64,000 nt of DNA from Acidimicrobiaceae bacterium. Lineage in GTDB: Bacteria; Actinomycetota; Acidimicrobiia; Acidimicrobiales; RAAP-2. A program made the translations under genes and the position numbers. Below the pieces are notes generated by a model. The model saw nothing but the letters and a program-made list of their open reading frames with translations. It did no database searches and was not told the DNA's origin. Of this stretch, positions 34,720-51,236 are shown one piece after another (the first letter of the stretch is position 1; each line of letters opens with the position of its first letter). Where the stretch lies: positions 1-64,000 of the forward strand of contig PMOE01000075.1 of the NCBI GenBank assembly GCA_003161575.1, written 5' to 3'.

Positions 34720-35172
34720 ATGACAAGTGCCAAGGTCCGTGCTCGCCTGAAGGAGATTGCGGCCCAACAGGCGAAGTTGGTCCAGGAGCTGGATGGTATC
34801 GAGGTACGGCTCGTGATCGGCGCCGAGGTCATCGAAGAAGGCTTGAAGTTGTTGGAGCGGGCCGAGGATCTCTATGGCAAGATGAGCGACACCCAGCGTC
34901 AGCTACTCAACCGAGCGCTCTTCCAGGAGCTCTACGTCCGCGACAACGAATTCGTGAGCACCGTGTTCAATGAGCCATTCAGCGAATTCATTTCGGCTCG
35001 TGATGCACTTGCCGGGACACTGAACTTCCCGGACATGCCGATAGCCGAAGGTTGGATCTGTGAGAACAGGGCGGTCCTGCTGGAACCTGCCCCAGACCGC
35101 CATGGTGGGCGCTGCCGGGCTCGAACCGACGACCTGCTGGTTGTAAGCCAGCTGCTCTACCGACTGAGCTAA
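34720..35172 (+). pseudogene. Serine recombinase C-terminal remnant
   Basis: The conceptual protein has the helical C-terminus of large serine recombinases. It shows a coiled-coil segment (VRARLKEIAAQQAKLVQEL), then IEEGLKLLERAEDLYGKMSD and RQLLNRALFQELYV. The catalytic resolvase domain, recombinase domain and zinc ribbon are missing. Nothing similar is found in the roughly 270 bases upstream, so it is a 5'-deleted remnant. The last about 25 codons of the open frame are an antisense reading of the tRNA-Val gene and not real protein. Together with the tRNA and the gene-poor DNA beyond it, this suggests an old integrated element that has been largely lost. Confidence 0.7.
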
Positions 35173-35178
35173 ACGCCC
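35103..35178 (-). tRNA. tRNA-Val (anticodon TAC)
   Basis: On the minus strand the sequence folds as a full cloverleaf. The acceptor stem is GGGCGTT/AGCGCCC, and the D arm GCTCAGTCGGTAGAGC. The anticodon stem GCTGG/CCAGC carries the loop CTTACAA (anticodon TAC, reading GUA). The T arm is GTCGG-TTCGAGC-CCGGC. The discriminator A and an encoded CCA follow. The anticodon context closely matches E. coli tRNA-Val(TAC). It flanks a recombinase remnant on one side and a gene-poor accessory stretch on the other, so it may be an integration target. Confidence 0.95.
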
Positions 35179-35676
35179 GAAGAAATCAAATCTACCTGGA
35201 ACTTTGTGATACTTCTTTGGTTTGGGGTCCGGCACAGCACTCGGAGAGCACATAGTTCGTGACGTTGCGAGCTAGAGGCAGCGAGCTAGAAAAGACCCAG
35301 TTGACCGAATCGCTTGGGAAGCGACACGAGCATCACCACGTCAAGCGTAGGCGCGGAAATCGAATCAGGGGTTCGAACCTCGACTCTGCGACGTAGCATC
35401 CGGATGAGATTGCCCGACTGTCCAAACGGGGCTGATGGTGGCCGATGGACCCCGCCATTGCGTCCCCATCGATTTAAAGTCCCAGCCAGGCCATATTCAT
35501 AGATCGTTCACATCGTTCACCTCTAACCCTCGGCCTCGAGATCACTCAACGGACTCGACGAGACACTCAGGTGCCAATTAAACCTCGCTGCGCCGTAAGC
35601 CACCGAATGGCAACTACGGAGAACCCAAATTGCGCCCTCATTGCGCGAAAGTGGCTGAAGTCAAAAGGAGCGCACG
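35179..35676. other. Gene-poor, less GC-rich stretch after tRNA-Val
   Basis: I find no gene with both an SD and a sensible product here. It holds two tandem direct repeats: GCGAGCTAGA at 35267-35276 and 35281-35290, and ATCGTTCAC at 35503-35511 and 35512-35520. Its last about 120 bases (from about 35555) are the diverged upstream part of the small-gene module that recurs before 36498. Confidence 0.45.
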
Positions 35677-35811
35677 ATGGCACAAGTGATAGACGATCTC
35701 GACCAAATCATGTGGAGCGCAACCCTTGAGGCGTGGTGGCAGAGGGAGTTCCCGGAACGGGAAGACTCGCTCGAGGTGCCGATCAACAACTCGACGCGCC
35801 CACTTGATTGA
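35677..35811 (+). CDS. Small protein of unknown family, 44 residues (paralogue of 36498 gene)
   Basis: ATG 35677 follows AAGGAG at 35665-35670 with six bases of spacing, a near-ideal SD. The product begins MAQVIDDLDQIMWSATLEAW and ends PINNSTRPLD. It aligns from end to end with the protein at 36498: MAQ-ID-L, then W--TL-AW, and -I----TR-L at the tail. Matching length, SD spacing, conserved upstream DNA and a hairpin about 90 bases downstream all argue that it is translated. The pattern suggests one amphipathic, Trp-rich helix of about 25 residues and a short tail. There is no signal peptide, membrane helix or Cys. I recognise no family. It could be a regulator or toxin/antitoxin-like peptide, without evidence. 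Confidence 0.6.
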   Translation: MAQVIDDLDQIMWSATLEAWWQREFPEREDSLEVPINNSTRPLD

Positions 35812-36497
35812 ACAAATCCGCGGTCCGGTAGCGGTCCTGATTCGAAGGACGACCGCCTCCCCCTGGCCGTGCCCGGGATAGAGAACCGCAAGGGAGAGGT
35901 AATCCCAGGGAAGTGGGGTTACGCGGTGGAGCCCATTCACTTCCATGCATCGAGGTTCGCCCGATGCACTGAGTTTCACTGGACAAACCCCGGTGGAGCT
36001 CCCCGCTCGCGGTAGGCAACGAATCTGGACATTTGACCAAAGCGTCCTCTCCACTGTGCGTTGGTCATCTTTTGGGGACTCTCCATCATCTCTGGCCAAA
36101 TCGATTTGGGCCCAGCAAGGGGCTCGCAAATCCAATTTCATTCCATCCAAGGACAAGACCCAGGATCAAAACGGTTCGACGATCGAGCCATCGCGTACAA
36201 CCGACCAGCGAGCGGCCACCGCGACCGCTCCGCCTCTGGCAAGCCAGCTAGGCCCCTAAGGAGAATATTTTCACGGCCGATGGTTCACCGATTGCGCTCG
36301 CAGCTGAGCAGGAAAGACCTGGTGAGGCACTGCGTTCAGCCCGGATTGGTTGCAAGCCAGCGCAACCCAGCTCGACGAACGCACCGGGCGGTCGAGGATG
36401 CCTCGGCTGTCGGCAGTGCCACCGGACGGCAACCCGAAGAGAACCCTTTTTGCCCCCTCACGGCGCGAAGGTTGTTGAAGTCGGAAAGGAACATACG
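35812..36497. other. Spacer between the two small-gene modules
   Basis: This holds the downstream part of module copy A (hairpin at 35899-35922) and the upstream part of copy B (from about 36370). The centre, about 36010-36370, shows only unsupported open frames, none with an SD at the right distance. An AAGGAG at about 36258 is followed by ATG only 16 bases later. Confidence 0.4.
35899..35922 (+). terminator. Hairpin downstream of small gene A
   Basis: GTAATCCC pairs with GGGGTTAC (one T-G pair) around an 8-base loop, about 90 bases after the stop codon. It is the counterpart of the stronger hairpin at 36756. It has no T-run, which is common in high-GC actinobacteria, so terminator or RNA-stabilising roles are both possible. 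Confidence 0.4.
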
Positions 36498-36674
36498 ATG
36501 GCGCAAGAGATAGACGAACTCGAGAAAATGTTGTGGTGCACGACCCTTCAGGCGTGGCTAGAACAATGGCGAAAAGAACACCGGGACCGGGTGGGCTCGC
36601 CCGAAATGTTGATCGCCACCCCAACGCGTCGATTGAGTGTTCCAACGAATCAACGGTGCCGCCGAGCAAGCTAA
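36498..36674 (+). CDS. Small protein of unknown family, 58 residues (paralogue of 35677 gene)
   Basis: ATG 36498 lies seven bases after AAAGGA (36485-36490). The protein begins MAQEIDELEKMLWCTTLQAW, continues with a charged LEQWRKEHRDR and ends in a basic Arg-rich tail (NQRCRRAS). It shares the MAQ-ID-L----W--TL-AW core and the S-E--I---TR-L tail with the 44-residue protein upstream, and is extended by about 14 residues. An amphipathic Trp-rich helix with a basic C-terminus would suit nucleic-acid or membrane contact, but this is inference. A perfect 13-base-pair hairpin follows. The family is unknown to me, and its location beside a recombinase remnant hints at mobile or phage origin. Confidence 0.62.
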   Translation: MAQEIDELEKMLWCTTLQAWLEQWRKEHRDRVGSPEMLIATPTRRLSVPTNQRCRRAS

Positions 36675-37321
36675 GTCGGGCCACCGAGGAATTGCGGTCT
36701 CGACGCGAAGGGCACTAGCCATTCGCCCCGGCGATTTCCGGGCCGGAACCGCAAAGGAAAGATCACCCGGGTTGGAGGGTGATCTTTCCGCGTTGTCGGC
36801 CGTTGCACTTCCACTCTTGGGTGTTGACCCAGTGCCCTCGGCTCTCGCTTCGACTGGACAGCACCAGCCGAAAGTGGTCACGTCGTTGGCCACGTATGAC
36901 CCCCCATCACCGGCCCACCTGTCGGTCAGGAGTCCAACGCAGGCCGCATTTATGCTCGATCCATAGAATGAGACTCACATTCCAGCGCTCGCCTCGACCA
37001 ATGAGTCATCGTCTTGAGCCGAACTCCTAGGAAGTGGGGCCCACGACGACAGTGCCGCCTTGCGCTTCCCTACCAGCTACGGCATTCCGCCCGCTTCCGT
37101 TGGAGCGAGTTGATCTTCCATCTGAGCGAAGCACCCGAAGTGGCGCTGGAATTGCCCTAAATCCAAGCACGCGCTCCGCCAGATTTTTAGATTCTCGCTT
37201 GCCTCTGAAATGGAGAACCCCTTGACGAGCACACAACCGTCAGCCCAAACCCTTGAATTTCCATGGCTGCTATCAGCAAACTCTGCATAGGGTGGGACGT
37301 CTCTAATCGAAGGAGTGCATC
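36675..37321. other. Gene-poor stretch before the quinone oxidoreductase
   Basis: Apart from the hairpin at 36756-36789 and the fading end of module B (to about 36870), I see no supported gene. Open frames here lack SD sites and read as noise. The last 100 bases should contain the promoter of the following gene. TTGACG at 37222-37227 and TTGAAT at 37251-37256 are -35-like, but neither has a convincing -10 at standard spacing. Confidence 0.4.
36756..36789 (+). terminator. Perfect 13-bp hairpin downstream of small gene B
   Basis: GGAAAGATCACCC and GGGTGATCTTTCC are exact reverse complements around the loop GGGTTGGA, about 80 bases after the small gene's stop. The stem is long for the region and no T-run follows. 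It is likely a terminator or the 3' structure of the small-gene transcript. Confidence 0.6.
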
Positions 37322-50495: not shown

Positions 50496-51236
50496 ATGCG
50501 ACGAGTTGCACTTCGACCGATCGACCAAATGGCCGCCGAATGGGAGGCCACCTGCCGGTCCCCCGAGTCCCTGCTTGCCCTGAGTCGGCTGGCCGAAGCA
50601 GAAGTTGAGGTGGCGGCCCTCGGCGTCAGCGACCTCGGCGCCCTGCTCGGCGCACTCCGCCGAGCCGAAGGCCCCGAGGAGCGAGATCATGCTGCCCGGA
50701 TACTTCAGGCCATGCTCCGCTCGCAAGCGGTCCACCCGCTCGTTCCCCGGGCCATTCTGCAAGCCCTCGTCCCGGGTCTGATCACCGTGGCCCAGCGGCT
50801 CGGCTGGGGAGCCGGTGGGGAGTGGGACGACGGGGGGGCGTTCTTCGCCGACCTTCTGGCGACGGCCTGGGAGGTGATCGTCGCCTGGTCCGGGCAAGAT
50901 CGGAGCTATGCCGTGCTCGACCTTTTGTCGGCCATCCGGTGCCGCCTCCGGCGTGAGGCCGAACGCCACCGGGCGACTCGGCGGCACGTGGCCCTGGGAC
51001 TCGACGCCGACAGCACCGGGCCGCCCGATCATTCGGGCGGGATCACCGACCTCGACGTCCTGGCCCGGGCCATCGAGACCCTGGCCGGCCAGGGTCTCGA
51101 TGCAAGCGACGCCGCGGTCCTCTACGGCAATTGCGTCCTCGGGCTCTCCATCTCCGAGCTCGCCCGGATGACCGGACGGTCCCGCCGCCACCTCGACGGA
51201 CGTCGCCACCGAGCGGCTCAGGAATTGTGTGCGTAG
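50496..51236 (+). CDS. Sigma-70 region 4-like DNA-binding protein
   Basis: This 246-residue protein is helical throughout. The C-terminal 60 residues (DASDAAVLYGNCVLGLSISELARMTGRSRRHLDGRR, in two parts) form a helix-turn-helix like region 4 of ECF or SigJ-type sigma factors. The middle (FFADLLATAWEVIVAWSGQD) weakly suggests region 2, but the usual promoter-melting signature is not clear, so it may be a sigma-like regulator rather than a functional sigma factor. The start is ATG 50496. Its end overlaps the next gene's GTG by eight bases, linking it to the secreted protein and the LysM/BTAD protein. Confidence 0.65.
   Translation: MRRVALRPIDQMAAEWEATCRSPESLLALSRLAEAEVEVAALGVSDLGALLGALRRAEGPEERDHAARILQAMLRSQAVHPLVPRAILQALVPGLITVAQRLGWGAGGEWDDGGAFFADLLATAWEVIVAWSGQDRSYAVLDLLSAIRCRLRREAERHRATRRHVALGLDADSTGPPDHSGGITDLDVLARAIETLAGQGLDASDAAVLYGNCVLGLSISELARMTGRSRRHLDGRRHRAAQELCA

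Follow-up and report, generated by a model that had tools for sequence, protein, structure and literature searches.

The window, that is, the whole 64,000-nt stretch of DNA analyzed here, contains two related small genes, A and B, 821 bases apart, with strong SDs located 6 nt 5' of the ATG (Table 1). These genes and their spacing had been proposed in a first-pass annotation made from the sequence alone, and both were found as described. Homology between the two loci well exceeds what chance would give (blastn, 141 bp, 78% identity, E=1e-26), and they have a noncoding leader, the SD, the reading frame and a downstream hairpin in common. Homology continues for about 160 nt past the stop codon, hairpin included, a score reached by none of 300 shuffles. 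On the 5' side, where about 120 conserved bases had been claimed, a conserved leader does exist, and its significant part comprises only the 78–80 nt that precede the ATG, starting with GCCACC; upstream of this motif, A/B homology was not significant, with 37 of 300 shuffles scoring equally. The leader is noncoding: in copy A, the frame of the ORF is closed by a stop about 20 nt 5' of the ATG, and single-base gaps separate leaders A and B.

Table 1. Features of the A/B module and its adjoining tRNA gene (window positions).
Feature	Position	Strand	Description
tRNA-Val(TAC)	35103..35178	-	Adjoins the A/B module; context only
Leader of copy A	35599..35676	+	78 nt, noncoding, begins GCCACC; also in B and C; cmsearch with covariance model R1, 85.4 bits (A is part of the model)
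SD of copy A	35663-35670	+	AAAAGGAG
Small ORF A	35677..35811	+	44 aa, MAQVIDDLDQIMWSATLEAWWQREFPEREDSLEVPINNSTRPLD; without the RRAS end present in B and C
Hairpin 3' of A	35885..35927	+	Inner stem 35899-35907/35914-35922, outer stem 35885-35889/35923-35927; likely terminator
Leader of copy B	36418..36497	+	80 nt; 74% identity with leader C
SD of copy B	36483-36491	+	GGAAAGGAA
Small ORF B	36498..36674	+	58 aa, MAQEIDELEKMLWCTTLQAWLEQWRKEHRDRVGSPEMLIATPTRRLSVPTNQRCRRAS; appears intact; 47% aa identity to C (aligned codons)
Hairpin 3' of B	36756..36789	+	13 perfect pairs, 8-nt loop (36769-36776); likely terminator

The hairpins behind A and B occupy homologous places. A hairpin with an 8-base loop had been described for both copies; this was confirmed for B, with its 13 perfect pairs, while hairpin A consists of 9 pairs, including one G-U, around a 6-nt loop (or, alternatively, of 8 pairs and a loop of 8). 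Each folded better than all of its 200 shuffles (z -3.4 for A and -4.9 for B), and perfect hairpins of at least 12 pairs occurred twice in the window, B being one of them, and never in five shuffles. The window's other long perfect hairpin, at 51071-51102, has 14 pairs and a 4-nt loop. In the covariation check that had been recommended, four of the eight stem pairs common to A and B were found changed on both sides with pairing kept, which, together with folding beyond shuffles, supports a selected structure. The simplest reading is that both hairpins are likely transcription terminators. The T-rich tail is short in B (CTTTCC) and absent in A, and neither hairpin was listed by a consensus terminator scan.

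The A/B stretch has a GC content of 58% vs. 67% for the window, and a Pfam search retrieved no further matches there, in line with the gene-poor, less GC-rich region reported initially. The tRNA noted beside the module was identified as tRNA-Val; by contrast, the serine recombinase remnant also reported there yielded no Pfam, PHROGs or tblastn match and was not confirmed. Separately, a segment at 35355-35395 (GGGGTTCGAACCTCG) resembles a tRNA T-arm and is perhaps an attachment-site trace or a chance likeness; neither Rfam nor ARAGORN recognized a tRNA fragment at about this position.

Searches of the same genome extended the family to five copies (A–E). Copy C, on contig C53, was retrieved with gene B (E=2.4e-6); it encodes 61 aa (MARYGERTSPDHLDGREQSLSQAWVSHWRREHSERDLHLMFVATPTRRLGLERESDVRRAS) behind the same leader as A and B, and this leader was detected independently by a DNA match (78% over 59 nt) and by a pattern search. 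A profile of A, B and C identified copy D on contig C78 (38 aa, MQDRKLRYVGTREQSLIQVWMDHWRREHSTASDLRQTS; E=2.7e-4), which lacks the middle part owing to an internal deletion. Copy E, on contig C4, nearly repeats the first 25 codons of D and is thus its truncated sister; the two belong to a 260-bp segment duplicated between contigs with 87% identity (L038:2114-2369 and L084:5128-5374). The D segment also contains a perfect 10-bp hairpin with an 8-nt loop. A DNA match on contig C95 was rejected as a further copy, being FtsK-like coding sequence. The covariance model R1, built from leaders A, B and C, recovered all three; the other matches examined were unrelated coding sequence, so that the leader appears exclusive to these copies.

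We considered whether the RNA might be the selected object, with the leader acting as a structured, riboswitch-like regulatory element and the small ORF being incidental. B and C are indeed more alike in the leader (74%) than in the coding sequence (59%), and GCCACC is able to pair with GGTGG in all three leaders with at most one mismatch. However, the leaders folded no better than shuffles (z -0.03, -0.20 and 0.67), and the upstream blocks, for which covariation had also been proposed as a check, showed none in the outer stem, where the 5' side is invariant. Further, the leader had neither a match in Rfam nor, among the matches examined, a noncoding counterpart in other genomes. A riboswitch was consequently rejected on account of the absent Rfam matches and the shuffle-like folding, and we regard selection on the RNA in general as unlikely.

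The first-pass annotation had also suggested selection on the protein, for which the signal turned out to be weak. In the comparison between copies that it had called for, dN/dS was 0.64 (A/B), 0.54 (B/C) and 0.56 (C/D), values that stem from 38–53 codons with small counts and are not clearly below 1. The true frame gave the lowest ratio for A/B and B/C, while for C/D it was matched by a shifted frame. GC by codon position varied less in B (0.58/0.49/0.61) than it did in the genes nearby (about 0.67/0.45/0.76), and AlphaFold predicted one helix (residues 10-42 of C) with low confidence (pLDDT 63). Conservation of the leader equals or exceeds that of the coding part: A and B diverge almost evenly in leader and coding sequence (72% and 70% identity, respectively), and their substitutions fall on the three codon positions as 12/13/14, without periodicity. 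Together with the A/B dN/dS ratio, this even divergence speaks for decaying repeat DNA, in which A and B would be drifting duplicates of a mobile-element fragment, their ORFs open by chance and giving rise to no functional protein. The survival of an open frame in 18-33% of random substitution simulations, the deletion in D, the truncation of E and the lack of any other gene in the A/B stretch all agree with such decay. Nevertheless, A, B and C retain start, SD and frame, B and C end alike in ATPTRRL...RRAS despite only 59% identity of their coding sequences, and the hairpins kept their pairing through changes on both sides. We therefore hold decay to be a real possibility, though a doubtful one; judged from their sequences, a coding function of B and C is plausible, whereas A, D and E look reduced.

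Outside this genome, no credible homologue was detected in 100 relatives, in sets of 298 and 397 genomes of the order, in 172 of the family or in 397 of the phylum (sets that overlap), nor in GTDB contigs, IMG/VR, phages or plasmids. Weak protein matches in relatives were rejected, those examined being other frames of unrelated sequence or containing stops. Likewise, a wider leader family was rejected, since the covariance-model matches examined in other genomes (E down to 1.7e-5) were located inside coding sequence. Pfam, NCBIfam, PHROGs, PADLOC and PDB gave no match either, and given the five copies of this genome and the lack of a family-library match, the proposal of an undescribed small-protein family held up. 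A complete lack of homologues had been named beforehand as one of the signs of decayed repeat DNA; homologues do exist, in the same genome only. The window's genome was the sole member of its genus among the genomes that appeared, and a family present throughout the genus would therefore give an identical picture.

Copy C differs from the others in its downstream neighbour. Its stop codon lies 12 nt 5' of an intact 127-aa WhiB-family gene (PF02467, E=3.5e-15), in which the four cysteines are present (CRG...CSECPVRAEC) and which matches the phage WhiB family phrog_472 (E=2e-18). The intervening 12 nt contain no T run and fold worse than shuffles (z +1.2). No recognizable SD precedes this WhiB gene, while a strong one stands before small ORF C, an arrangement that makes translational coupling likely. 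A WhiB gene is present at one of the five copies, C, and its link with the small ORF may accordingly be due to chance. We also considered A and B as degraded WhiB operons and rejected this idea, as no trace of WhiB was found downstream of either.

With regard to mobile elements, proximity to recombinase and tRNA genes is clear for D, partial for C and restricted to a tRNA for A and B. Integrases are scarce, with only 15 matches in the 3.5 Mb of this genome. Copy D lies about 0.5 kb behind a gene for a 397-aa tyrosine integrase, at a tRNA-Gly; an integrase fragment (phrog_1) and a Mutator-family transposase lie no farther than about 2 kb to either side of C; and the A/B neighbourhood offers tRNA-Val only, with no confirmed recombinase. 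Two relatives of C's WhiB gene in the same genome are located near integrases: one on contig C14 (G000:C14:10648-11477), which follows a tyrosine integrase match of that strand at a distance of 138 nt, and a degraded one on contig C8, 3.3 kb from an integrase. A mobile-element origin, raised earlier as a possibility, is thus supported by the surroundings of D and C and by the integrases near these two WhiB genes, although no att duplications were found. The pair on C14 likewise hints at WhiB genes travelling with integrases in this lineage. Within the family, two genomes have a small gene (GRxFRMVxSxQLQATHC..P.WKGxWxDRKG.xWYxEA) divergent to WhiB relatives, and a broken trace of it stands beside C in the same place (L024:10541-10671 (+), L042:1178-1390 and L046:1061-1264); mobile WhiB genes may have a conserved partner in it.

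The positions of D behind its integrase gene at tRNA-Gly and of C near an integrase fragment might also suggest a small protein that assists nearby tyrosine integrases in the manner of an excisionase. This is very improbable in our view: the best PHROGs match was no better than E=0.25, the low-confidence model (pLDDT 63) is a single helix with no winged-helix fold, and homologues in phages and viral contigs were not found. Moreover, at least 13 integrases of the genome have no copy nearby.

We tentatively favour, as an explanation that could well be correct, a lineage-restricted (orphan) family of small genes, about 60 codons in length, that has been propagated within this one genome through duplication and the traffic of mobile elements, with C as a WhiB-coupled unit and A and B as its solo derivatives. 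Copy C would be the fullest unit, made up of leader, strong SD, small ORF and WhiB-family (wbl) gene, and its small ORF would be the first cistron of a WhiB operon with a putative role as WhiB leader. Ribosomes would bind at the strong SD in front of the small ORF and translate WhiB by coupling, so that the small ORF may set or sense WhiB output, or its helical product may act as a partner of WhiB. A and B would be solo duplicates (leader, ORF and terminator) without WhiB, in gene-poor and probably decaying DNA; B may still be expressible, and A is shortened and probably decaying. A bolder version, which we judge decidedly unlikely, sees here a new type of WhiB-operon control, in which a 60-codon leader cistron with a conserved 80-nt 5' element is translationally coupled to a mobile WhiB gene and solo A/B transcripts or peptides act on it in trans. 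On the whole, this appears to be a mobile-element gene of orphan type and not a major new system. If real, the proposed small-protein family would be specific to this lineage and linked with mobile WhiB regulators, and it would illustrate the spread of a leader cistron in the form of solo copies; as matters stand, it is another orphan small gene with a function not readable from sequence alone.

Among known systems, the upstream-ORF attenuators of whiB7/wblC in actinomycetes (reviewed in PMC11550727) resemble copy C in that a short ORF, putatively translated in C, stands with its own SD directly 5' of a WhiB-family gene. In those attenuators, however, a terminator lies between the upstream ORF and WhiB, while C has only 12 nt and no terminator at this place; here, hairpins stand instead behind the solo copies A and B, which have no WhiB gene. 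In addition, the WhiB protein encoded behind C, as read from its sequence, has no WhiB7-like AT-hook tail. An attenuator of the whiB7 type was not assigned to C, given that the defining intrinsic terminator/antiterminator between upstream ORF and WhiB is absent; induction by ribosome-targeting antibiotics or starvation is a further hallmark of that type. WhiB genes are also carried by actinobacteriophages and integrative elements (PMC8612146). C's WhiB gene is akin to these in its match to phrog_472 and in having relatives near integrases within the genome; it differs in that no phage structural genes were seen near any copy and that no phage homologue of the small ORF was found. Finally, the family resembles orphan (taxonomically restricted) bacterial small genes in being short, confined to one genome, without a domain and with a weak selection signal, but it stands apart from these as a multi-copy family with a common leader and a hairpin changed on both sides of its pairs.
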